This document shows positions 4,535-24,422 of a stretch of DNA of 43,309 bases, piece by piece (within the stretch, counting starts at the first letter, position 1; each line of letters starts with the position of its first letter). Below the pieces are notes generated by a model. That model had not been told where the DNA came from. It saw nothing but the letters and a program-made list of their open reading frames with translations, and searched no databases. This DNA is from Myxococcales bacterium. GTDB lineage: Bacteria; Myxococcota_A; UBA796; SXON01. Position numbers and translations under genes: made by a program. The stretch spans positions 1-43,309 of the forward strand of contig SHYV01000004.1 of NCBI GenBank assembly GCA_009692605.1, read 5' to 3'.

Positions 4535-5134
4535 ATGCACACCACCGCCCCCGGCGCAGGGCCCTTGATCTGGGCGATCTCCGGCGGACAGCCCGACCTC
4601 ATGGCACGCGCCCGGCTCGCGCTCGCTGCGGGCCTCGACCGCCTGCTGGTCCGCGAAGCGCAATTGCCTGCCCGGAGTGGGCTGGAGCAGCTCGCGGCGA
4701 ATTTTTCAGGGCGCGTCGTCCTCCACGCCCGGATGCCTGACGCGGCCGTCGTGGCGCTCGATCTCGGCCTCGGGCTCCACCTGCCGTCGGACGCGTTGGC
4801 GGGCCCGTTTCGCGAGCGCTGGGCCGGACCGCTTGGGCAAAGCTGCCATACGCTCGACGAGGTGCGAGCGGCGTTCGACGCCGGCTGTGACTGGGCCTTC
4901 CTCTCACCGATCTTCAGGCCGATCTCGAAGCCCGACGACCGACGACCAACGCTGGGGCTCGCGGCGTTGAACGGGAGCCAGGCGGTAGCGCTGGGCGGCA
5001 TCACGCTGACGACCGCAGCGGAGTGTGTCCGGAGCGGGGCTGTGGGGGTCGCGTCCATGAGCGGCGTCCTCTCCCAGCCCGACCCCGCCCACGCGGTCAG
5101 GCTGTGGATGGCGGCGACAGGGCGCCTACACTGA
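4535..5134 (+). CDS. TenI/ThiE-like thiamine biosynthesis protein
   Basis: This is a 199-residue TIM-barrel protein of the thiamine phosphate synthase/TenI superfamily. It contains SCHTLDEVRAAFDAGCDW followed by FLSPIFRPISKPDDRRP, then ALGGIT and GAVGVASMSGV, which form the phosphate-binding end of the barrel. The usual ThiE magnesium motif (GQxD after GxHL) is replaced by GLHLPSDAL. The retained histidine of SCHT fits the TenI thiazole tautomerase better than the synthase. I chose the ATG at 4535 because longer versions run into the divergent kinase gene. No other thiamine genes are nearby. The 3' end overlaps the convergent uvrA stop by nine bases. Family placement is firm; the exact reaction is open. 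Confidence 0.82.
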   Translation: MHTTAPGAGPLIWAISGGQPDLMARARLALAAGLDRLLVREAQLPARSGLEQLAANFSGRVVLHARMPDAAVVALDLGLGLHLPSDALAGPFRERWAGPLGQSCHTLDEVRAAFDAGCDWAFLSPIFRPISKPDDRRPTLGLAALNGSQAVALGGITLTTAAECVRSGAVGVASMSGVLSQPDPAHAVRLWMAATGRLH

Positions 5135-8100
5135 CCCACCCGCCAGCGCCGCAGCCGAGGCCCGCCCACGCAGGGCCTCGCCCGTCCAGCTCCCGGTGAC
5201 CTGCGCGATCTCCTCCGGAGTCCCCGTCGCGACGACCCGGCCGCCCCCGGGACCGGCGCCGGGCCCCATGTCGATCACGAAGTCCGCGTGCCGAATGATG
5301 TCAAGGTGATGCTCCACGATCACCACGGTGTGGCCGTGGTCCACCAGCCGATCGATGACGGTGACCAGACGCTCGATGTCGCTGAGGTGGAGGCCCGTGG
5401 TCGGTTCGTCGAGCACGTACAAGGTCGGCTGTGACCGTTCCGCGAGCCCGAGCGCCAGCTTCACCCGCTGGGCCTCGCCGCCGGAGAGATCGGTCGCCGG
5501 TTGACCGAGCCGGACGTACCCCAGCCCCACCGCCGCGAGGCCCTCGAGCGCGCGACGGATCGCTTTGTGATGGGCGAACAGCTCCAGCGCATCATCGACG
5601 CGCAAGTCTAAAACATCGGCGATGGACAGGCCCTTAACGCGGGCGTCGAGCGTCTCAGGAGCGAACCGGCGGCCGTGACAGGTCTCGCACTTCACCCACA
5701 CGTTCGAGAGGAAGTGCATCTCGATCTGCTCGAAGCCGTAGCCGCTGCACACCGAGCAGGCTCCCGAGCCGCCGTTCGCGCTGAAGTGGCTGTGCGTCCA
5801 GCCGCGCTCGCGGGCTACGGGCGTCTGCGCGAAGAGCTTACGCAGCGGGTCCATCACCCCCACGTAGGTGGCTGCGCTGGAGCGCGGGCTCCGGCCGATA
5901 GGTGTCTGGTCGATCACCTGAAGGAGCAGCGCAGGGCCGGTGACGTCAACCGGCCGCTGCTCGCCCTGAAGGCGACCCACCATCAAGTCAAGGATCAGTG
6001 TGCTCTTTCCAGAACCACTCACCCCGGTCACCACGGTCAGCGCCCCGGTGGGAATGTCCACCGAGACGCCGTTCAGGCTGTGGCGCGTGGCGTTCCGGAT
6101 CTGGATCGGGGGCCCGCCGAGCCGTCGGGCCGAGGGCAACCGGATCGACCGCTCGCCGGTGAGCCACGGGCCGGTGACGCTGCCCGGCCCAAGGGACATA
6201 GGCGGGCCTGCGGCGAGCACCTGCCCCCCTCGCTCGCCCGCCTCGGGACCGAGATCGATCACATGGTCGGCCCGCTTGATCGTCTCAGGGTCGTGCTCCA
6301 CGATCACCAGCGTATTGTCGAGCGCGCGGAGGCCTTCAAGGGTAGCGAGCAGCCTGTCGGTGTCGCGAGCGTGCAGGCCGATCGTGGGCTCGTCGAGCAC
6401 ATAGATCACGCCGGTCAGGCCGCCGCCGAGCTGGGTCGCCAGCCGGATGCGCTGGGCTTCGCCGCCAGAGACGGTGTTCCCCCCGCGATCGAGGGTGAGG
6501 TAGCCCACGCCTACATTGTCGAGGAAGCCCAGCCGGGCCCGAATCTCACGCAGCGGCTGTGCAGCGATCAGCGTCGCCTCGGGGTTCAGCTGGAGACCGT
6601 CGAACCAGTCGCGCGCACCGGCGATGGTCATCGCGGAGACCTCGTGCAACCCAAGCAGCGCGCGCCCGCCCCCCGCGGGCCCGCCCCCCGAGAGCACGGC
6701 CCTCCCGCCAAACTTCACCGCCAGAATCTCGGGCTTCAGCCGCCCCCCGAGGCACTTCTTGCAGTGCCACAGCTGGCCCTTGATCTCGATGCGACCCATG
6801 CCGTCGCAGGTGCCACAGGCGCCAAGGTAGTGGTTGAAGCTGAAGTGCCGGGGCGTCAACGCCACCTTGTGGATCAGCCCGTGATCGGGGCAGCGGGCCT
6901 GAGAGCTAAACGGAATCGGAGCCGGGTTCCCGCTCGTGCCAGCGCTCGTGCCGGCGCCAGCCCGGCCGCCGGAAGCCGGGCGAGGCTGGAACCGCGCCAT
7001 GTTGCCCCCGTAGCGGTAGGCCGTGGTGATCGCCTCAACCACCCGGCTTCGCTCTACGGTGCCGGGGTCCAGCCGATCGATGACCAACGTGGCGACCCGC
7101 GCCTGATCGGTGAGCTCGTATGCCCCCTTGCGGCCATCATACCCACGGGCAAAACCTGCCTTCCGAAGATCCTCGGCGGATGCCGGCTCGGAGAGCGCGC
7201 ACAGGAGCCAGCCCGGGCCGGGCTGCTGGGAGGCCAGAAACTCGGCGGCCTGAACGGGCGGACGGGCGTGGATCCTCTGGTCGCAGGTGGGGCAGTGTGG
7301 AACCCCGAGGTTGGCCCAGAGGAGCCGGAAGTGATCCTGAAGCTCGGTGATCGTCGCGACGGTGCTCCGCCCGCTGCCGCCGGACGTGCGCTGATCGATA
7401 GCGATCGCGGGCGCGAGCCCGGTGACGCTGTCGATGGGCGCACGCTCCAGCCGGCCCAGAAAGCGCCTTGCATAGGTAGATAGGCTCTCGACGTAGCGCC
7501 GCTGGCCCTCGGCGAAGATGGTATCGAACGCGAGCGAGGTCTTCCCCGACCCGGAGGGCCCGGTGATGACCGTCATCTTGCCGTGTGGGATGCACACGTC
7601 CACGCTGCGGAGGTTGTGGCATCTGGCCCCGCGGATCACAAGGTCGTGGCTGTGCGCGAGGACCGGGCGAACTCGGGGCTCGTGGACAAAAGACACCTGC
7701 CTGCCGCCGAACTCTGGAAGTCCGGCCAGCACCCGGCCGGTCGGGGTGTCGGTCGCGGCGATCGCCCGGGGTGTCCCGGCGGCGAGGACGCGCCCGCCGT
7801 CGATCCCGCCCTCCGGCCCGACCTCGACGAGGTGGTCGGCGACCTTGACGACGTCGGTGTTGTGCTCGATGATCAGCACGGTGTTGCCCGCGTCCACCAG
7901 CAGCTGGAGCGCGTCGATCAGGATCCTCACATCGGCGAAGTGCAGCCCGGTCGTCGGCTCATCGAGCAGGTAGACGGTGTTCCCCGTGGCCGGCCGCTGC
8001 AGCTCCGTCGCGAGCTTGAGGCGTTGGGCCTCGCCGCCAGACAGCGTGGTAGCGTTCTGTCCAAGCGTCAGGTACCCCAGACCGACATGATCCAGCGCGC

Positions 8101-10306
8101 TCAGGATGCGATGGATCTTCGGGTGGTTCGCCCAGAACTCCACGGCCTCCTTGATCTGCATTTCCAGCGCGTCGGCGATCGATTTGCCACGGTACAGGAT
8201 TTCAAGGGTCTGTACGTTGAATCGCCGTGAATTACAGGTTTCGCAAGGCACCTCGACGTCGGCGAGGAAGTGCATCGCGATCGTGCGTACGCCGGCGCCG
8301 TCGCACCCATCGCAGCGCCCACCCTTCACGTTGAAGCTGAATTGCCCCTTCTTGTAGCCGCGCGCTTTGGCCTCCGGGAGCTGGGTGTAAAGATCACGGA
8401 TCAGGTCCCATGCGCCCGAGTAGGTCCCTGGATTTGACCGTGGCGTACGCCCGATCGGGGTCTGCGCGATCTCGATCACCTTGTCGGGGAGCTGTGCACC
8501 CTCCGGGCCGGTGAGGGTGAGCGTGCCGCACTCCGGGGTGGCCCGCCCCTCAAGGTGCGCCTGCAGCACGTCAAACAGCAGGGTCGATTTACCTGAGCCG
8601 GAGACGCCGGTGAACACCGTCAAGCAGCCGAGCGGGAGCTTCAGCGTATCGCCGCGCAGGTTGTGGACCTTCGCTCCCTTGATGTAGATTTCACCCCGCC
8701 CGAGCGCCTTCGCCGTGCGCAGCTTGCCGGGGAGCGGGATGACGTCCTCGTCGCGGAGGTAGCGGGCGGTTGGGGAGTCTACGAACATGAAGCTAGCCGG
8801 CGGGCCGGACGCCATCAGCGACCCGCCGCGCACACCGGCCCCCGGCCCGATGTCGACCAGATGGTCGGCCATCTCCATCGTCTCCCGATCGTGCTCCACG
8901 ATCAGCAGCGTGTTTCCTTGATCGCGAAGCACACCGAGCGCGTGCAGCAAGCGCCGGTTGTCTCTGGCGTGCAAACCAATGCTCGGCTCATCCAGAACGT
9001 AGGTGACACCCTGCAGCCCGCTCCCGACACAGGCAGCGAGCCGTATGCGCTGCGCCTCTCCACCCGAGAGGGTGTTCGCGCGCCGGTCGAGCGTCAGGTA
9101 ACCAAGCCCGACCTGATCCAGAAATCGCATGCGGTCCCGGATCTCCTTGACGATGCCCTCGCCCAGCAGGATCTCGTTGCCGACGAGCGTGACACCCGCG
9201 AAGAACTCGTTGGCGTCGCGCACGCTCATGTGGGTCGCCTCGTCGATGTGCTTGCCGCGAAACTCCACGGCGAGCGCCACGGCGTTCAAACGGCGGCCCC
9301 CGCAGTCCCCGCAGCGGGAGCGCAACGAGGGCTCGGCGTCCGAAGGAGCGGGCACGGTCAGGCCGCGAAGCTGAACGACCTCCCCGATGCCGTTGCACGT
9401 GGAGCACGCCCCCTGCGGGGCGTTGAACGAGAACAACCTTGGCTCAAGCTCTGGAATCGAAATTCCGTGCTCCGGGCAGGCACGGTCGACGGCATGCACA
9501 GAGTGCCGATCCGGCGCGCCGTTCACGCCGGGGATCAGGAGACAGACCACCCCGTCCGCCAGCCGCAACGCCCGCTCCACCGACTCCACGAGGCGAGCGC
9601 GGTCCTGATGCAGGCAGGCCAGCCGGTCCACCACCAGCTCGAGGGTGTGCTTCTCGTACCGGGCGAGGGCGCGCGGCTCGTCCAAGCGCCGGATCTCCCC
9701 GTCGACACGAACGCGGATCCACCCGTCCTTCTGCCACTGCTCCCACTCTTCCCGGTACTCCCCCTTGCGGTCGCGGACGACAGGGGCGAGGACCAGCACC
9801 CGGTCCCCTTCGTGGTCACGGAGCCACCGGTCGGCGAGCTCCCCCGGGCTCTGTCGGGCGATGGTGCGGTCACACTTCGGGCAGTGCGGTGTGCCCAGCC
9901 GAGCGAAGAGCAGCCGCAGGTGGTCGTACACCTCAGTGACCGTGCCGACCGTCGACCGTGGGTTGCGGTTGACCGTCTTCTGGTCGATGGACAACGTCGG
10001 GGAGAGCCCCTCGACCCGGTCGACCTTCGGGCGCTCCATCTGGCCCAGGAACTGGCGCGCGTAGGGCGAGAGCGACTCCATGAAGCGCCGCTGGCCCTCC
10101 TGATAGATCGTGTCGAACGCCAGCGACGACTTGCCAGAGCCCGACACGCCGGTGATGACCACGAGGGAGTCTCTGGGCAGGTCGAGGGACACGCCGCGCA
10201 GGTTGTGTTCGCGGGCGTTGCGCACGGAGAGCATGCGCGTCCCGGGGCGGGTGTAGACGGGGGCGGCCATGGCCCCGCGGGTAACGCGGGGGGCGTCGTT
10301 TCGCAC
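5126..10306 (-). CDS. uvrA: Double-length UvrA excinuclease ATPase
   Basis: UvrA recognises DNA damage and loads UvrB in nucleotide excision repair. A usual UvrA has about 940 residues and two ABC ATPase modules; this one has 1726 residues and four. Walker A motifs of the form GxSGSGK lie near residues 53, 567, 915 and 1428, each followed by a SGGEAQR signature and a DEP Walker B. The first half keeps a recognisable UvrB-binding region (VLVLAPVVRDRKGEYRE). The matching part of the second half is degenerate and has an alanine/glycine-rich insert. In both halves the insertion domain between the two cysteine pairs is cut to about 15-25 residues. The longest frame starts at GTG 10306; an ATG at 10270 is equally plausible given the promoter signals. 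It overlaps the convergent TenI-like gene by nine bases. Confidence 0.93.
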   Translation of the reverse strand: MRNDAPRVTRGAMAAPVYTRPGTRMLSVRNAREHNLRGVSLDLPRDSLVVITGVSGSGKSSLAFDTIYQEGQRRFMESLSPYARQFLGQMERPKVDRVEGLSPTLSIDQKTVNRNPRSTVGTVTEVYDHLRLLFARLGTPHCPKCDRTIARQSPGELADRWLRDHEGDRVLVLAPVVRDRKGEYREEWEQWQKDGWIRVRVDGEIRRLDEPRALARYEKHTLELVVDRLACLHQDRARLVESVERALRLADGVVCLLIPGVNGAPDRHSVHAVDRACPEHGISIPELEPRLFSFNAPQGACSTCNGIGEVVQLRGLTVPAPSDAEPSLRSRCGDCGGRRLNAVALAVEFRGKHIDEATHMSVRDANEFFAGVTLVGNEILLGEGIVKEIRDRMRFLDQVGLGYLTLDRRANTLSGGEAQRIRLAACVGSGLQGVTYVLDEPSIGLHARDNRRLLHALGVLRDQGNTLLIVEHDRETMEMADHLVDIGPGAGVRGGSLMASGPPASFMFVDSPTARYLRDEDVIPLPGKLRTAKALGRGEIYIKGAKVHNLRGDTLKLPLGCLTVFTGVSGSGKSTLLFDVLQAHLEGRATPECGTLTLTGPEGAQLPDKVIEIAQTPIGRTPRSNPGTYSGAWDLIRDLYTQLPEAKARGYKKGQFSFNVKGGRCDGCDGAGVRTIAMHFLADVEVPCETCNSRRFNVQTLEILYRGKSIADALEMQIKEAVEFWANHPKIHRILSALDHVGLGYLTLGQNATTLSGGEAQRLKLATELQRPATGNTVYLLDEPTTGLHFADVRILIDALQLLVDAGNTVLIIEHNTDVVKVADHLVEVGPEGGIDGGRVLAAGTPRAIAATDTPTGRVLAGLPEFGGRQVSFVHEPRVRPVLAHSHDLVIRGARCHNLRSVDVCIPHGKMTVITGPSGSGKTSLAFDTIFAEGQRRYVESLSTYARRFLGRLERAPIDSVTGLAPAIAIDQRTSGGSGRSTVATITELQDHFRLLWANLGVPHCPTCDQRIHARPPVQAAEFLASQQPGPGWLLCALSEPASAEDLRKAGFARGYDGRKGAYELTDQARVATLVIDRLDPGTVERSRVVEAITTAYRYGGNMARFQPRPASGGRAGAGTSAGTSGNPAPIPFSSQARCPDHGLIHKVALTPRHFSFNHYLGACGTCDGMGRIEIKGQLWHCKKCLGGRLKPEILAVKFGGRAVLSGGGPAGGGRALLGLHEVSAMTIAGARDWFDGLQLNPEATLIAAQPLREIRARLGFLDNVGVGYLTLDRGGNTVSGGEAQRIRLATQLGGGLTGVIYVLDEPTIGLHARDTDRLLATLEGLRALDNTLVIVEHDPETIKRADHVIDLGPEAGERGGQVLAAGPPMSLGPGSVTGPWLTGERSIRLPSARRLGGPPIQIRNATRHSLNGVSVDIPTGALTVVTGVSGSGKSTLILDLMVGRLQGEQRPVDVTGPALLLQVIDQTPIGRSPRSSAATYVGVMDPLRKLFAQTPVARERGWTHSHFSANGGSGACSVCSGYGFEQIEMHFLSNVWVKCETCHGRRFAPETLDARVKGLSIADVLDLRVDDALELFAHHKAIRRALEGLAAVGLGYVRLGQPATDLSGGEAQRVKLALGLAERSQPTLYVLDEPTTGLHLSDIERLVTVIDRLVDHGHTVVIVEHHLDIIRHADFVIDMGPGAGPGGGRVVATGTPEEIAQVTGSWTGEALRGRASAAALAGGSV

Positions 10307-10411: not shown

Positions 10412-12118
10412 ATGGCCGGTCAGCAGCGTCAACCCGTTTCGCCTTCACCCCCCGCTGTGTCCCCCGACACCGGAGAACAAGCCGTTGCGCCAGCGGTTTC
10501 GCAGGCGCGAGGGAATGACGCCGCCCAAGCCGGCATCCCCGCGGCTGCAACCGACGACAAGGCCGCCCAAGGTGCGGGTGGCGGGGACTCCGGCCTCGCA
10601 AACTACGAGGCCGCCCTCGGCGAGTTCCTCGGCGGCGAACTGTACAAGGCGATCGCACCGTCGCTGGGCTACGAAAAGCTCTCCGGCGCCGCGAAAAAGG
10701 GAGTCGACAGCGCGCTCGACGCCCTCGTGAAGCAGTTCGGCAGCCTCGACAACGTCACCGCCGATCCGAAGGCCCTCGATGTCCTCGGCAAGCTCCTGAA
10801 GGACTCGCTCGACCCGCTGGTGGACGAGTGGCTCAAGAAGCACGGCCCCGGGCTGGCCGAGAACCTCACCGAGTGGGTGGGCGCACATCCCCGGACGATC
10901 GTGCTCACGGCGCTGCTCGCCGCCGCGGGCGCCATCATCGCGAATGTCGGCATCCCGACGCTCAAGCAGAAGTTCGCGCTCGGCAAGGGGCTCTCAGCCG
11001 AGGTCGAGGCCAAGCTCGGCAAGCTCCGCGACATCTCGCTGCAGCGCGTCCGGGCCACGCTGACGTACGAGAGCGGCCCGCTGCTCGCGGCCGTGTCCGC
11101 AGGTCGCGACGACAAGGGCACCACCGGGGAAGTCCACGCTGCGTACAAGGGCGAAGGCAAGTCCCTCACCGCCGACGCCACCTACGACGGGAAAGGGCTC
11201 AAGTTCGCGGGGCTGAACGGGGTCATTGATACCAGCGCAGGGCAGGTCTCCGCGGGGGTGAACAGCAAGCGCGGCGACAGTACGATCGCAGGGGTGAAGG
11301 TCTCAACGAAGGACGGAAAGCTCACCGATACTAAGGATTTCCAGTACAACGCGACGACCGGCATCTTCTCGCTCGGGCTCGGCAGCGTCTACTCGGACGG
11401 CGGGCTCACCGTCGACCGCAAGTCCACCGTCAGCTCCGACGGCAGCAGCAGCAGCAGCCAGAGCATCGCGGCCCAGAGCACCAAGGACGGGGTGACCAGC
11501 GGGGCCTACGCCGGCATCTCGCACGAGTCGTCGAAGACTCCATTCGGCATGACCGAGACCGACAAGTTGACCTTCGGCATGAATTACTCAAAGGAGGATT
11601 TCAAGGCGAAGCTGGACGCCGCGCTCTCCTCCAACGGCACGACGAGCCTCGCGGGCTCGCTCAAGAACACCGATGGCGAGCACAGCTACGGCGGCGACTT
11701 CCTCACGAAGTCCGGCAACGAGAAGCTCTGGGAAGTGGGCGGGTTCTACGGGTTCAAGTCGCGCGACGAATTCCGAAGCTACGTCCTGGACTACCGCTAC
11801 AAGTCGGACGTCGAGCAGTCAAAGTTCGGCCTGCTGGTCGAGCAAGAGATCAAGGGCACCTACATGCGTTGGCAGTCTTCCGTCACCTGGGGGGGCGCGA
11901 ACACCACGAAGCTGGACACGTCGCTTCAGGCCGCCCGCTACATCAACGACGACACTGCGCTGATCGGGGGCGCGAGGTACCAAAAGGACTTCGGGACTGA
12001 CAAGAGCAGCATCAACCCCCAGATTGGCGTTCAGTACAAGGGCATCCCGATCCTAGCCGAGTACAACACCCAGACCAAGGGCGTCATGCTGGGCATCACG
12101 ATCCCGTTCGGGCGGTAG
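10412..12118 (+). CDS. Orphan protein: proline/alanine-rich head, one hydrophobic helix, beta-rich tail
   Basis: I do not recognise this 568-residue protein. Residues 1-55 are rich in Pro, Ala and Gln and look disordered, with no Sec signal. Residues 60-155 are helical and charged. A hydrophobic segment at about 162-184 (TIVLTALLAAAGAIIANVG) could span or insert into a membrane. From about residue 205 to the end the sequence is a long run of short amphipathic strands with alternating residues and glycine/serine turns, resembling a beta barrel or a repetitive beta solenoid; it ends GVMLGITIPFGR. The mixture resembles exported or injection-system cargo more than an enzyme, but no secretion genes are adjacent. 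A strong promoter and a GGAG site precede the ATG. Expressed and coding: confident. Function: unknown. Confidence 0.85.
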   Translation: MAGQQRQPVSPSPPAVSPDTGEQAVAPAVSQARGNDAAQAGIPAAATDDKAAQGAGGGDSGLANYEAALGEFLGGELYKAIAPSLGYEKLSGAAKKGVDSALDALVKQFGSLDNVTADPKALDVLGKLLKDSLDPLVDEWLKKHGPGLAENLTEWVGAHPRTIVLTALLAAAGAIIANVGIPTLKQKFALGKGLSAEVEAKLGKLRDISLQRVRATLTYESGPLLAAVSAGRDDKGTTGEVHAAYKGEGKSLTADATYDGKGLKFAGLNGVIDTSAGQVSAGVNSKRGDSTIAGVKVSTKDGKLTDTKDFQYNATTGIFSLGLGSVYSDGGLTVDRKSTVSSDGSSSSSQSIAAQSTKDGVTSGAYAGISHESSKTPFGMTETDKLTFGMNYSKEDFKAKLDAALSSNGTTSLAGSLKNTDGEHSYGGDFLTKSGNEKLWEVGGFYGFKSRDEFRSYVLDYRYKSDVEQSKFGLLVEQEIKGTYMRWQSSVTWGGANTTKLDTSLQAARYINDDTALIGGARYQKDFGTDKSSINPQIGVQYKGIPILAEYNTQTKGVMLGITIPFGR

Positions 12119-19452: not shown

Positions 19453-21171
19453 TCAGGGAATCTGGGGCCAGCCGCCTTCGTGGGCCGCGGCGAGCCAATG
19501 GAGCACGGTGTCGGCGGTGACGCCCGCGTCGAGCCAATCGTTGAGCTCGCCGTAGGTCGTCTGGCCCCCGGCGACGGCGGGGCCCGCGGCGCCGAAACCC
19601 GCCCAGCCCAGCATCAGCCCATGGGCGTTCAGCGCGGGGAGCGGGGCGTAGACGAAGGCGGCCTGGCCGTTCCACTTGCCAGAGGGCCCCGCTTGCGTGG
19701 CGCGGAACCGCTCGCCGTCCCACACCAGGGGCAGGTTGTGGGTCGGATCGAACCACGTCTCGCCGGCCCAGCCGAGCGCCAGCGGGGACAGCCCGACCGC
19801 CTGCAACGCGGCGATCATCACGCTCGTCGCGCTCGCGCAGTCGCCCGAGAACGAGCCGTCCGCGAGCCAACGATCAGCCTGGAACGAAGCGCTGGTGCCC
19901 TTGTGGAGCGGAACGGGCACGCCGTCCACCGCGCCGAGCGAGCGACCCTCGGCCCTGTCGCGCTCCCAAGCAAAACACGTGCTGCGATCGAGCCGCTTCT
20001 GATCACACAGCGCCTCCATCCCGGCGTCGTCAGCGCGGTACGCGAGGTCGGCCCACACCCGGCTGTCCCGCGCGTCGGCGGTGGCGATCTCGTCGGGACC
20101 GAGCGGCAGCTCGTCCCGAAGGGCCCGCAGGGTCTCGATGTCGGCGACGTGGAACCGGTACGCCTCCGCGGAGAGCCGACCCGCCTCCCAGCCCAGCGGG
20201 CGGGCGCCATAGACCGAGCCTTCTCCGCCCGGCCAGGCCCACAGCATCTTTTGCACCGGGCCGAGCGCGTGGACGCGCCACGCCAAGGGCGGGCTGTCGC
20301 CCGCCTGCTCGCTGAGCCAGAGGTCCACCTCATCGGCGTAGGCAAGCCGGGCCCGGGCGTCCGCCAGAACCTGCGGCGCCACGCCGGCGTCCACGAGGTC
20401 CAGCCAGGGGCCCCAGGTCGCCGCCACGGCGACGACGAGGTCCGCGTCGACCGGACCGGCCTGCCCATCGAGCAGCGCGACGACCAGCCGCACGGTCTGC
20501 CCGGTCGCCCCGAACGTACCGCCGGCGGCGTCATCCACCTCATCTCGACCGGGGGAGTCGCCGCCGTCGCCCGGCCCCAGCGCCCGGAACAGGAACGACG
20601 TGGGGCGCTCGCCGAGCGGGCCGGCGTCGATCGAGATCGAGAAGTCCCAGCCGTGATCGTCGTGCCACGCCTGCCCAGGGACAACCACGGTGTTCTCGAC
20701 AGCCGTGCCACCGGGGATGACGTTCGCCTGCAGGATCGTGGTCGCCCGCCACACCGGCAGGTCGAACCGAAGGTCGGGGGCCGGTCCGCCCCGGTTGTCC
20801 ACGTAGATCTGGAGCCTGTCCAGGCCAACCCCCTCGACGTGGCCGGTGTAGCGCCAGCCTGCCCCCTGGCGCTCGCGGACCATCTTGCTCCACGTGATGT
20901 CCGGCCCGCTGGCCAGCTCGTCAAGCTCATCCGGCAGCCAGCCCGAGTCCTTCGGCAGCAAGAAGCGACGGAGGGAGGGGTGCGCCCGCTCCAGCACGTC
21001 CGCCAGAGCGCCGAGGTCGTCGGTATACCGCGCGGCCTCCTTCGCGAGCCCCGGAGCCAGCCGGTCCAGCCGCTCGGCCGGAGTGAGCGACGGCTCCACG
21101 GCGATGGGCTCCGCGTCACACGCGAAGAGGCCGAGCCCAGCGAGCAACACCGCCGAGCGCAGCCCCCTCAC
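19453..21171 (-). CDS. Lipoprotein with a transglutaminase-like domain
   Basis: This 572-residue predicted lipoprotein begins at the GTG overlapping the mutase stop as GTGA. That start gives a compact signal, VRGLRSAVLLAGLGLFAC; longer readings add an arginine-rich stretch with no signal. Asp at +2 after the cysteine would hold the protein in the inner membrane under the enteric Lol rule, which may not apply here. Near the C-terminus GDCASATSVMIAALQAVGLS followed by FDPTHNLPLVWDGERF matches the Cys and His segments of transglutaminase/protease-like folds. The N-terminal 400 residues mix helices and beta strands and are unfamiliar. It is probably an envelope peptidase or crosslinking enzyme; the substrate is unknown. 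Confidence 0.82.
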   Translation of the reverse strand: MRGLRSAVLLAGLGLFACDAEPIAVEPSLTPAERLDRLAPGLAKEAARYTDDLGALADVLERAHPSLRRFLLPKDSGWLPDELDELASGPDITWSKMVRERQGAGWRYTGHVEGVGLDRLQIYVDNRGGPAPDLRFDLPVWRATTILQANVIPGGTAVENTVVVPGQAWHDDHGWDFSISIDAGPLGERPTSFLFRALGPGDGGDSPGRDEVDDAAGGTFGATGQTVRLVVALLDGQAGPVDADLVVAVAATWGPWLDLVDAGVAPQVLADARARLAYADEVDLWLSEQAGDSPPLAWRVHALGPVQKMLWAWPGGEGSVYGARPLGWEAGRLSAEAYRFHVADIETLRALRDELPLGPDEIATADARDSRVWADLAYRADDAGMEALCDQKRLDRSTCFAWERDRAEGRSLGAVDGVPVPLHKGTSASFQADRWLADGSFSGDCASATSVMIAALQAVGLSPLALGWAGETWFDPTHNLPLVWDGERFRATQAGPSGKWNGQAAFVYAPLPALNAHGLMLGWAGFGAAGPAVAGGQTTYGELNDWLDAGVTADTVLHWLAAAHEGGWPQIP

Positions 21172-24100
21172 AGGTTCCGCCGGTACTCGCCGCCGACGTC
21201 GTACAGGGCGCGGCTGATCTGCCCGAGGCTGGCGACCCGCACGGTCTGCATCAGCTCCGCGAACAGGTTGCTGCCGTCCAGCGCAGCGAGGCGCAGGCGG
21301 TCGAGCGCAGGCCCGCACTCGTCGGCGTGCCCAGCCTGAAAGGCGCGGAGCGCGGTGATCTGCGCGGTCTTCTCCGCGGGGGAGGCGCGCCGCAGATCGA
21401 TCTTCGCCGGCTCCCAGTCCGCCCCGAGTGTAGAGGGGTCCTGAAAGGTGTTGATCCCGACGATCGGCAAGGTGCCATCGTGCTTCTGGTTCTCGTAGTA
21501 CAGCGACTCCTCCTGGATCTTGCCGCGTTGGTACTGGGTCTCCATCGCCCCGAGCACGCCGCCTCGCGAATCGATGCGCTCGAACTCCTTCAACACCGCC
21601 TCCTCGACCAGGTCGGTGAGCTCGTCGACGATGAATGAGCCCTGCAGCGGGTTTTCATTCCGCGCCCAGCCCAATTCCTTATTGATGATCATCTGGATCG
21701 CCATCGCCCGCCGAACCGACTCTTCAGTGGGTGTAGTCACCGCCTCGTCGTAGGCGTTGGTGTGCAGGCTGTTGCAGTTGTCGAACAGCGCGAGGAGCGC
21801 CTGCAGCGTGGTGCGGATGTCGTTGAACTGGATCTCCCGGGCGTGCAGGGAGCGTCCCGAGGTCTGAATGTGGTATTTCAACCGCTGGCTGCGCTCGTCC
21901 GCCCCATAGAGATCGCGCATGGCGACCGCCCAGATTCGCCGGGCGACCCGGCCGAGCACGGTGTACTCGGGATCGAGCCCGTTGGAGAAGAAGAACGAGA
22001 GGTTGGGCGCGAAGTCGTCCACCGACATGCCGCGCGACCGGTAGTACTCCACGAACGTGAAGCCGTTCGACAGGGTGAACGCGAGCTGGCTCACCGGGTT
22101 CGCGCCGGCCTCTGCGATGTGGTAGCCCGAAATCGACACTGAGTAGTAGTTTCTAACTTCATTTTCGACAAAGTACTGCTGGATGTCGCCCATGAGCTTG
22201 AGCGAGAACTCGGTCGAGAAGATGCAGGTGTTCTGGGCCTGATCCTCCTTCAAGATGTCGGCCTGCACCGTGCCGCGGACCGTGCTCACCGTCCGTGCCC
22301 GGATCGCAGCGGCTTCAGCGGCGTCGGGCTGTCGGCCATTTCGATCCACGAACACCGCGATCTGCTGGTCGATCGCGGTGTTGAAGTACATCGCGAGCAG
22401 GATGGGCGCTGGGCCGTTGATGGTCATGCTCACGCTGGTGGTCGCGTCGCACAAGTCAAAACCCGAGTACAGGATCTTCATGTCATCGAGCGTGGGCACG
22501 CTCACGCCGCTCTCGCCGATCTTGCCGTAGATGTCGGGTCGCTCGTGAGGGTCCTCGCCGTAGAGCGTGACGCTGTCAAACGCGGTGGAGAGTCGTTTGG
22601 CGGGCTCGCCCTTGCACAGGTAATGGAAGCGCGCGTTGGTCAGGGCCGGCCCGCCCTCGCCCGCGAACATCCGCTTCGGGTCTTCATTCTGTCGCTTGAG
22701 CGGAAAGACGCCGGCGGTGTACGGGAACAGGCCGGGAAAGTTCTCAAGGAAGCCGAAGCGGACGATCTCGCCGGCGTCTTCGAAGCGCGGAGCGGAGACC
22801 CGCGGGATGTCGAGCCCCGACAGGGACCGGACCTTCATCGGCTGCTTCAGCGTCTTGCCGCGCACCTCGTAGCTGTACTCGGCGCCGAGGTAACCCTGAC
22901 GCAAGTCCGGCCAGCATCGCACATAGTTGGCGACCTCCGGCGTGAGCGGGATGGCGTCGCGCGCGGCGGCGAGGACGGCGCGGGTGGCCGCGAAATCGGG
23001 CGTGTCGCCGGCGGCGATCTCGTCCAAGGCGCCGTCGATGCGCCAGCGCCGACGGGCGTTCTGCGCCTCGTTCTCGATCCGCGCACGATACCGGCGCACG
23101 GTGTCCACGATCTCGCCGAGGTAGCGTGAACGTTCGGGAGGCAGGATGCGGCGTCGCGGAGGGCTCGCCTTCTGGGCAGGCGCCTGCAAGCGGGAGGTCC
23201 AGGGCAGGCCGGTCGCCTGATGCAGCAGCCCGCAGAGGTGCAAATAGGCCGCGTTGACGCCGGCGTCGTTGAATTGGGAGGCGATGGTCCCAAAGACAGG
23301 CAGGACCTCGTCGTCCAACGTCCACAGCTCCTTGTTGCGCCTGACCTGCTTGCGAACGTCGCGGAGCGCGTCCTCCGCCCCTCGCCGCTCAAACTTGTTC
23401 ACGACCACCATCTGCGCGTAGTCGAGCATGTCGATCTTCTCGAGCTGGCTCTGCGCTCCAAACTCGGGCGTCATGATGTAGATCGAGAGATCCGAGACAT
23501 CGACGATCCCGGCGTCGCCCTGTCCGATCCCGCTCGTCTCCACCAGGATCAGGTCGTAGCCGGCCTCCCTGCAGAGTCGGATGGCGTCGCGGGTGGCCGA
23601 GGACAGCTCACCCTTCTCGTCACGCGTGGCGAGCGAGCGCATGTACACGTCGCCGCCAAGAGCGTTCATCCGGATCCGGTCGCCGAGCAGCGCCCCGCCG
23701 GACCGCTTGCGCGTCGGGTCGATGGAGAGCACCGCGATGCGGCGGCTGTCGCCGAAGTCCATGCGGAACCGACGGACGAGCTCATCCACGAAGCTCGACT
23801 TGCCCGCCCCGCCTGTCCCGGTGAAGCCGACCACCGGAGCGGGGTTGACCGCCGCGGACTCGAGCACCGCGCGCAGCTCGGCTCCCGCGGCGCCGCGCCG
23901 CGACTCGGCGGCGGTGATGGCTCGGGCGAGCTGGGACGGATCGCCGGCGCGCAGCTTCTCGAGGTCGAGCGCGGCGACGTCAATGGGGTCGAAGTCCGAG
24001 CGGCGAAGGATGTCGTTGATGATGCCCTGCAGCCCCAGCCTCCGCCCGTCCTCGGGCGAGTAGACGCGCTCGACCCCCTCCTTCTGAAGCACCCGGATCT

Positions 24101-24422
24101 CGTCGGGCACGATGACACCGCCGCCGCCCCCGAACACCTTGACGTGCTTTGCCCCCGCGTTGTCGAGCAGCTCCCGCATGTAGCGGAAGTACTCCATGTG
24201 GCCGCCCTGATAGCTGGAGATGGCGATAGCCTGCGCGTCTTCGTCAACGGCGGCCTTGACCACGTCAGCTACGGAGCGGTTGTGACCGAGGTGGATGACC
24301 TCCGCTCCGCTCGACTGCAGGATGCGGCGCATGATGTTGATGCTGGCGTCGTGGCCGTCAAACAACGCAGCGGCCGTGACGATGCGTACCTTGTGGGTGG
24401 GGCTGTAGCGCTCGGTTTCCAT
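21168..24422 (-). CDS. icmF: Fused isobutyryl-CoA mutase (IcmF)
   Basis: IcmF interconverts isobutyryl-CoA and n-butyryl-CoA using adenosylcobalamin and contains its own G-protein chaperone. The 1084 residues are in the IcmF order: a B12-binding domain (1-140) with cobalt ligand H24 in FDGHDASINIM, a MeaB-like GTPase domain with Walker A GTGGAGKS at 202-209, and a C-terminal mutase barrel from about 560. The barrel carries FPYTAGVFPLKR and RMFAGEGG, and later DDMKILYSGFDLCDATTSVS. All parts look intact. Related fused mutases can prefer pivalyl-CoA or other acyl-CoAs, and I cannot settle the substrate. The stop overlaps the start of the transglutaminase-like lipoprotein gene. Confidence 0.96.
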   Translation of the reverse strand: METERYSPTHKVRIVTAAALFDGHDASINIMRRILQSSGAEVIHLGHNRSVADVVKAAVDEDAQAIAISSYQGGHMEYFRYMRELLDNAGAKHVKVFGGGGGVIVPDEIRVLQKEGVERVYSPEDGRRLGLQGIINDILRRSDFDPIDVAALDLEKLRAGDPSQLARAITAAESRRGAAGAELRAVLESAAVNPAPVVGFTGTGGAGKSSFVDELVRRFRMDFGDSRRIAVLSIDPTRKRSGGALLGDRIRMNALGGDVYMRSLATRDEKGELSSATRDAIRLCREAGYDLILVETSGIGQGDAGIVDVSDLSIYIMTPEFGAQSQLEKIDMLDYAQMVVVNKFERRGAEDALRDVRKQVRRNKELWTLDDEVLPVFGTIASQFNDAGVNAAYLHLCGLLHQATGLPWTSRLQAPAQKASPPRRRILPPERSRYLGEIVDTVRRYRARIENEAQNARRRWRIDGALDEIAAGDTPDFAATRAVLAAARDAIPLTPEVANYVRCWPDLRQGYLGAEYSYEVRGKTLKQPMKVRSLSGLDIPRVSAPRFEDAGEIVRFGFLENFPGLFPYTAGVFPLKRQNEDPKRMFAGEGGPALTNARFHYLCKGEPAKRLSTAFDSVTLYGEDPHERPDIYGKIGESGVSVPTLDDMKILYSGFDLCDATTSVSMTINGPAPILLAMYFNTAIDQQIAVFVDRNGRQPDAAEAAAIRARTVSTVRGTVQADILKEDQAQNTCIFSTEFSLKLMGDIQQYFVENEVRNYYSVSISGYHIAEAGANPVSQLAFTLSNGFTFVEYYRSRGMSVDDFAPNLSFFFSNGLDPEYTVLGRVARRIWAVAMRDLYGADERSQRLKYHIQTSGRSLHAREIQFNDIRTTLQALLALFDNCNSLHTNAYDEAVTTPTEESVRRAMAIQMIINKELGWARNENPLQGSFIVDELTDLVEEAVLKEFERIDSRGGVLGAMETQYQRGKIQEESLYYENQKHDGTLPIVGINTFQDPSTLGADWEPAKIDLRRASPAEKTAQITALRAFQAGHADECGPALDRLRLAALDGSNLFAELMQTVRVASLGQISRALYDVGGEYRRNL

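Follow-up and report, generated by a model that had tools for sequence, protein, structure and literature searches.

Double-length UvrA proteins, in which two UvrA cores are joined in one chain, are already known. The curated model NF001885 (PRK00635, 1809 positions, "excinuclease ABC subunit A") covers one kind, which we take to be chlamydial. Another has been described in Planctomycetes, where Tuwongella immobilis UvrABCD, all four subunits, was identified by mass spectrometry; the portions of that description available here contain no analysis of docking domain or ATPase sites (PMC8567305). We analyzed a further member of this double-length kind, encoded by a tandem uvrA gene in a 43,309-nucleotide stretch of DNA from a Myxococcales bacterium (assembly GCA_009692605.1, contig SHYV01000004.1, positions 1 to 43,309), hereafter called the window. 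In this protein and its relatives across the order, the residues and profile matches that mark a complete UvrB-docking face point to the first half alone, suggesting a one-sided pseudo-dimer. The original prediction, made from the letters of the window, had mentioned other double-length UvrAs in databases, and both the curated model and the Planctomycetes report bear this out.

Against NF001885, the window protein scored 1144 bits, where the cut-off is 3054, and hence it is not a member; the best stretch crosses the junction of the two halves (330-1020 on 397-1073). With canonical class I UvrAs (E. coli; TIGR00630/NF001503), each half shares two nucleotide-binding domains (NBDs), the signatures, and the zinc modules, and half 1 also shares the UvrB-binding domain. 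Unlike class I UvrAs, the window protein has two cores per chain, half 2 is without the hairpin and E222 of the docking face, neither half has the class I insertion domain, and one zinc cysteine is a histidine. Class II UvrAs, such as Deinococcus UvrA2 (2vf7) and Ecm16 (7sh1), lack the UvrB-binding domain and have the insertion domain. Half 2 resembles them in having no standard UvrB face, and both structures were matches of the half-2 model; unlike them, half 2 keeps a remodelled form of the domain without the insertion domain, and half 1 has a UvrB-binding domain. We found no description of unequal UvrA halves in the open-licence literature searched. What is new here is a one-sided docking face kept through an order, a split docking set in a second tandem type (B, as opposed to type A of the window), and a family in which both insertion domains have been lost.

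Architecture and docking signatures of the tandem UvrA

The gene is a single minus-strand frame, running from a GTG at 10306 to a stop ending at 5126 with zero internal stops. ATG codons at 10270 and 10234 are alternative starts, and one of them may be the real start because the proteins of relatives start closer to the first "HNL" motif. Two complete UvrA cores in one frame and four ATPase sites had been predicted, and both were found: the protein matched TIGR00630 in four stretches with 1959.9 bits (cut-off 729.8) and NF001503 with 2012.4 bits (cut-off 1147), and each half consists of two NBDs with Walker A, signature, Walker B, and H-loop, giving four full sets. At the protein level, identity between the halves is 46-48%, varying with the alignment used, and thus the tandem is not a recent DNA duplication; half 2 is 46% identical to E. 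coli UvrA. The features are as follows, where pLDDT is the predicted local distance difference test score of AlphaFold2 and HMM is a hidden Markov model of the docking region.

5126-10306, minus: tandem uvrA gene, 1726 aa, GTG start at 10306 (frame reading and TIGR00630 match)
7697-10249, minus: half 1 with the limits used in alignment and folding, a complete UvrA core that has no insertion domain (AlphaFold2 mean pLDDT 86.5)
10124-10150, minus: half 1 Walker A of NBD I, GVSGSGKSS (E. coli alignment)
9539-9853, minus: half 1 UvrB-binding domain, Pfam UvrA_inter, residues 152-256 (Pfam; 123.8 bits with the single-UvrA HMM)
9755-9769, minus: half 1 RKGEY hairpin, RKG being E. coli 158-160 (alignment)
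9026-9070, minus: half 1 ABC signature of NBD I, LSGGEAQR... (motif reading and alignment)
8573-8608, minus: half 1 Walker A of NBD II (alignment)
8012-8044, minus: half 1 ABC signature of NBD II (motif reading and alignment)
7643-7726, minus: linker joining the halves, residues 861-888, 26 aa by another alignment (alignments)
5129-7642, minus: half 2, complete UvrA core without insertion domain (AlphaFold2, cut from 7696, mean pLDDT 82.5; best PDB match UvrA 2r6f)
7535-7561, minus: half 2 Walker A of NBD I, GPSGSGKTS (alignment)
6917-7303, minus: half 2 remodelled UvrB-binding-type domain, without RKG hairpin (model limits, residues 132-260 of the folded half; 7.5 bits with the HMM)
6929-6982, minus: half 2 Ala/Gly/Ser-rich insert, residues 1109-1126 (alignment; within a stretch of pLDDT below 50)
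6449-6472, minus: half 2 ABC signature of NBD I, VSGGEAQR (motif reading and alignment)
5990-6025, minus: half 2 Walker A of NBD II (alignment)
5672-5758, minus: half 2 C-terminal zinc module, CxxC...CxxC (alignments)
5456-5488, minus: half 2 ABC signature of NBD II (motif reading and alignment)

Docking was surveyed in 35 tandems of the order, using the residue numbering of E. coli UvrA (from NC_000913) and an HMM built from 11 single UvrAs. Within the window protein, Pfam UvrA_inter (PF17760) matched once, in half 1 (residues 152-256, 120.3 bits), with no match in half 2, and the HMM gave 123.8 and 7.5 bits for the two halves. The same pattern ran through the order. RKG at positions 158-160 was present in all 35 first halves and in none of the 35 second halves, and E222 in 34 and 1, respectively; R216 was present in both halves of all 35. 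HMM scores were 100-139 bits for first halves and 4-34 bits for second halves, with single UvrAs (HMM-building ones included) at 123-182 bits and the single-length paralogue from the window's own genome at 82.7. R216 and E222 were changed together in E. coli UvrA to disrupt its UvrB surface (PMC3025350). At the level of sequence, the complete docking signature is limited to half 1 in the order's tandems. A UvrB-binding region in the first half only had been predicted, and the sole Pfam match agrees with this; however, half 2 is degenerate in this region and not devoid of it, with about 119 residues that remain and fold in the model.

The catalytic parts are conserved on both sides. Walker A, Walker B (LDEP), and H-loop occurred at both sites of both halves in 35/35 tandems, and signatures (LSGGE, or V, M, or I in first place) in 35/35 first and 34/35 second halves. 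An adenine-stacking arginine marks the tight distal ATP site and a glutamine the weak proximal one (PMC6486640); all first halves have both, and second halves have the arginine in 35/35 and the glutamine in 34/35. The exceptions for the half-2 signature and glutamine are L077 and L078, both of family f2. Among eight zinc cysteine positions checked, seven are cysteine in both halves of every tandem. The eighth, E. coli C256, is histidine in both halves of all 35 and cysteine in both halves of the tandem from family f7, which lies in the same class outside the order. This position seems, from the alignment, to have changed together in both halves, by gene conversion or co-adaptation.

Of the 114 residues that make up the insertion domain in E. 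coli (287-400), 16 are left in half 1 (17 by another alignment) and 8 in half 2; remnants of 15-25 residues had been predicted. It is missing from both halves in all 17 tandems examined of family f1, to which the window belongs, and only there among the 35; from half 2 only in both f2 tandems and in L081 of family f3; and from neither half in the other 15. We therefore rejected its loss as a general key feature, since among the 35 examined it is a family trait. The pairing of docking loss with insertion-domain loss in the earlier claims did not hold either, as docking is one-sided in all 35 tandems and both insertion domains are lost in just 17. E. coli UvrA without this domain discriminates damage more poorly, and its transcription-coupled repair is hurt less than its global repair (PMC3025350). 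As a separate observation, an 860-aa frame from another class of the phylum (L110, genome G114) is a single-length UvrA with 10 insertion-domain residues, and the same genome has a normal single-length UvrA (L111).

The region corresponding to E. coli 131-248, the UvrB-binding domain, retains 120 residues in half 1 and 119 in half 2. The predicted alanine/glycine-rich insert of half 2 is present (residues 1109-1126, window 6929-6982), and the region is shorter in the four other members of the genus (105-109 residues compared with 119). Between 22 order members (231 pairs), the half-2 domain has a mean identity of 39%, compared with 8% after shuffling positions. Its divergence relative to the NBDs is 1.55 (25 members), similar to 1.48 for half 1 and 1.59 for single UvrAs (n = 11), and it has its own set of conserved positions: G148, P209, Y225, and F234 in E. 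coli numbering. We folded each half alone with AlphaFold2 using 21-row alignments. Mean pLDDT was 86.5 for half 1 and 82.5 for half 2, where blocks of the domain (131-240) reached 79-90 and the insert was below or near 50. Foldseek with the half-2 model returned UvrAs as all of its first 39 PDB matches. Going by residue conservation and predicted fold, the half-2 domain is remodelled, not decayed.

A putative covalent pseudo-dimer and competing readings

The simplest reading of these data is a pseudo-dimer with one complete face, because the ATPase and zinc parts of both halves have been kept and one docking face has not. We lean slightly toward this reading, in which the tandem would be a covalent asymmetric UvrA pseudo-dimer for nucleotide excision repair with one UvrB docked per chain; the cis-pairing and the stoichiometry are what we infer. 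The two halves would pair in cis like the protomers of a normal UvrA dimer, and the paired halves would grip damaged DNA jointly, using all four ATP sites. Half 1 would dock UvrB or the UvrB-like module of Mfd, with one UvrB loaded per engagement. Half 2 would be the second DNA-binding and ATPase protomer, and its former docking domain may have another conserved role, either structural or as a contact for a different partner. If UvrB were loaded on one strand only, a lesion on the opposite strand would oblige the chain to rebind flipped.

A built-in pseudo-dimer with one UvrB-loading face had already been proposed in the original prediction. The distribution of RKG (35/35 first halves, 0/35 second halves) and the ATPase motifs kept in both halves fit this proposal, which stays at the level of interpretation, and several observations weigh against it. 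R216 is retained in every second half, and the half-2 domain still folds in the model. We chose RKG as a marker only after seeing the alignment, and we found no source that calls RKG a UvrB contact. Among the 11 single UvrAs checked, the exact RKG occurs in 6, RRG or KKG in 3, and neither in 2, while R216 occurs in 11/11 and E222 in 9/11; RKG or KKG also occurs elsewhere in the region in 7/35 second halves. Two UvrB per UvrA dimer, one per strand, have been proposed as the means of telling which strand is damaged (PMC7616783). Finally, decay of a duplicate would equally remove one of two redundant faces. As such decay also leaves one face, the pattern would mean that a chain can manage with a single face, without implying any advantage.

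Reports differ on the number of UvrB molecules per UvrA dimer, and both UvrA-UvrB stoichiometries are on record (PMC7835731). UvrA2 with one and with two UvrB both appear among PDB titles (9ga3 and 9ga4), 9ga3 being the one-UvrB state. A homodimer is hard to make one-sided, and a naturally one-sided tandem makes UvrA2B1 versus UvrA2B2 testable. The tandem chain would also let the four ATPase sites be mutated one at a time, which is difficult in a homodimer.

Chains could instead pair in trans through their first halves, giving two UvrB faces as in ordinary UvrA, with half 2 as a regulatory or extra DNA-binding arm. The normal docking domain does sit in half 1, half 1 does group with ordinary UvrAs (support 93), and a linker of about 26 aa does not force pairing in cis. 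We nevertheless consider this arrangement unlikely, as half 2 keeps the ATPase motifs, zinc ligands, and arginine/glutamine pair in nearly all 35 tandems, which is more than an arm needs, and the linker measures 26-27 aa in the 17 tandems from the window's family and ranges over 21-43 aa among the remaining 18.

A second alternative is a division of labor between two different faces, in which the half-2 domain would dock, for example, Mfd, some other partner, or a different state of UvrB. The constraint on this domain relative to the NBDs, which is like that of half 1 and of single UvrAs, its own conserved residues, the universal R216, and its fold in the model would all suit such a role, as would the occurrence of hairpin and contact residues on different halves in type B tandems. 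On the other side, the region reaches just 4-34 bits with the docking HMM, and the conservation of half 2 may be structural only. We regard divided labor as a real but doubtful possibility, and keep the one-faced pseudo-dimer as the working interpretation.

Spread across the order and probable role in repair

Tandem frames were surveyed at a match threshold of E 1e-130 in 71 genomes of the class, 63 of them from the order, own genome included. By table reading, an orthologous frame of at least 1600 aa is present in 45 of the 63 order genomes. Shorter frames lie at the orthologous match in 16, several of which begin within 50 bases of a contig end; in G014, the tandem frame is split in two, and at this threshold two order genomes (G041 and G057) had no orthologous match. 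Elsewhere in the class, the one f7 genome has a tandem and a single-length UvrA, the one f8 genome has a frame of 1051 aa, and f9 has frames of 572-1078 aa in 4 of 6 genomes and no match at E 1e-130 in the other 2. The tandem frames of records L029-L032 are identical to those of G002, G003, G004, and G001, respectively, and add no evidence. A plasmid search matched 530 records, in none of which a single place covers 80% of the chain.

Duplication by assembly or sequencing had been named in advance as what would overturn the prediction. The window genome is indeed fragmented (186 contigs, 79% complete). However, its two halves are only 46-48% identical, and the same two-core frame is found in independent genomes, whose best segments are 54-85% identical to the window protein. 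We rejected an artefact on these grounds and give it practically no weight.

The other components of nucleotide excision repair accompany the tandem. Across 38 genomes, own included, UvrB was found in 37, UvrC in 37, and Mfd in 36 at the thresholds applied; 28 of the Mfd matches exceed the Mfd cut-off. Of 16 order genomes outside f1, 14 had no further UvrA listed over the TIGR00630 cut-off at E 1e-140; the exceptions were G031, which has a canonical 954-aa UvrA with RKG, and G033. Very probably, the tandem serves the order as its repair UvrA, and f1 may have a second UvrA. A single-length frame above the TIGR00630 cut-off was listed in 12 of 22 f1 genomes, which counts against the tandem having to be the sole UvrA there. 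All 13 single-length f1 paralogues examined, own included, are without RKG, and in the four from the window's genus, the first signature reads LSTGE and the second H-loop has lost its histidine. Single-length UvrAs were also listed in 7 of 9 type B genomes.

A search of the window's genome for a separate single-length uvrA, as the original prediction had proposed, returned one paralogue on contig C123 (L002:1498-4176, 892 aa). It has LSTGE for LSGGE and VVDTD for the second H-loop, and it scored 714.1 bits with TIGR00630, below the cut-off of 729.8. Because this paralogue exists and the genome is 79% complete, we do not claim that the tandem is the only UvrA of this genome. One could go further and regard the tandem as an accessory UvrA, with a single-length UvrA doing housekeeping repair; the C123 paralogue, the 12 f1 genomes, and the canonical protein of G031 would be in line with such an arrangement. 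The altered motifs and low score of the own paralogue speak against it, as does the lack of another listed UvrA above the cut-off in 14 of the 16 genomes outside f1, and we judge it distinctly improbable. By eye, the coding frame of the own paralogue also contains a palindromic repeat with GGATCCTACCC-type arms (L002, about 2680-2750).

Fusion origins, other tandem types, and neighboring genes

The main tree comprised 80 rows (halves and single UvrAs) and 907 columns and was built by a quick method, with the Shimodaira-Hasegawa-like approximate likelihood ratio test (SH-aLRT) as its only support measure. First halves of 17 order tandems formed one clade (99), as did their second halves (100), and the halves of the f7 tandem were sister to these first-half and second-half clades, respectively (100 and 99). 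On this tree, one fusion gave the type A tandems before the order split. The phylogeny of halves, which had been suggested as a way to see whether the fusion happened once, thus points to a single fusion in the window's lineage. First halves of the order's tandems group with ordinary UvrAs (support 93), and the second halves are a separate lineage.

Type B tandems occur in other classes of the phylum: nine were verified (L106, L117-L124), and outside the class at least 9 of 45 genomes carry one. Like type A, they are double-length with four ATPase sets, some with Walker B variants, and they have a separate first-half lineage. Approximately unbiased (AU) tests, run with 42 rows, rejected a clade uniting the first halves of A and B (p 0.0035) and did not reject one uniting their second halves (p 0.145). 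Internal duplication, tested as first and second halves forming one clade, was rejected for A (p 0.018) and not for B (p 0.277). These tests lend partial support to separate fusions for types A and B, which we consider probable. Type C, found in the order (L114, L116, L125, L126), joins two class II-like UvrAs, with no UvrB-binding domain in either half; these paralogues keep the insertion domain, and some have altered signature or Walker B motifs. On a viral-collection contig, L153 (1750-7635, 1961 aa) has halves that group together among single UvrAs (support 92, 44-row tree), and this tandem is probably a further, separate, and recent fusion.

A second viral-collection contig carries a type B tandem of 1840 aa (L146:1186-6708) that adjoins a phage capsid gene (L146:6973-7968; PF19821, E 8.8e-38); it is a phage- or prophage-borne double-length UvrA. 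A frame on L147, from another contig, matches it in size and position. In phage records searched with the L146 protein, 43 records matched; the places in the 15 records listed span about 2.8-2.9 kb and are thus single-length.

We examined docking in 12 other tandems: the 9 of type B, 1 from f7, and 2 from the viral collection. A clean mirror image of type A was considered for type B and rejected; the hairpin agrees with it, but neither the two contact residues nor the overlap in HMM scores lends it support. No first half of the nine has RKG, and eight second halves do, the ninth having KKG, so that type B differs from type A in having the hairpin on half 2. The contact residues lie on half 1, where R216 is present in 9/9 and E222 in 7/9, compared with 1/9 and 2/9 for half 2. 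HMM scores overlap, at 19-64 bits for first and 41-81 for second halves. As in type A, no type B tandem has a complete docking set on both halves, and in type B no half has one at all. Hairpin and contact residues in L146 are split as in other type B tandems. In L153, half 1 has AKGE with R216 and E222 (138 bits), and half 2 has lost the hairpin and kept R216 and E222 (107 bits). The f7 tandem is similar, with 97.8 bits for half 1 and 53.5 for half 2, where the hairpin is gone and R216 and E222 are kept; its half 1 has LAGGE in place of LSGGE. Searched with the docking region of E. coli UvrA, the NF001885 model (1809 positions) gave a single matching stretch, within its first half.

An RKG or KG-E hairpin together with R216 and E222 is complete in both halves in none of these 12 tandems. 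Even so, because type B splits the set, a general one-face rule across tandems is weak, and the disagreement of its markers, like the residues retained by the second halves of L153 and f7 and the altered f7 signature, counts against the one-sided pseudo-dimer. The failure of the type B mirror image slightly lowers our confidence in that reading. A broader and rather speculative idea is that bacteria made UvrA a covalent dimer several times, each time losing a docking set complete on both halves; if so, one UvrB per dimer would suffice for repair in cells, contrary to the model of one UvrB loaded on each strand by every dimer, and the second face would be free for a new partner. The split in type B and the only mild change in L153 half 2 weaken this idea considerably, and we think it rather unlikely.

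No signal was found for a LexA-like box (8 matches with at most one mismatch, compared with 10.1 expected). Divergent from the tandem uvrA lies a gene for 568 aa (10412-12118, plus strand) with no Pfam match, and a 569-aa open reading frame occupies the same position in L029 (6189-7898). Farther along the window, one 1084-aa frame (21168-24422, minus strand) joins methylmalonyl-CoA mutase, a B12-binding domain, and a MeaB GTPase.

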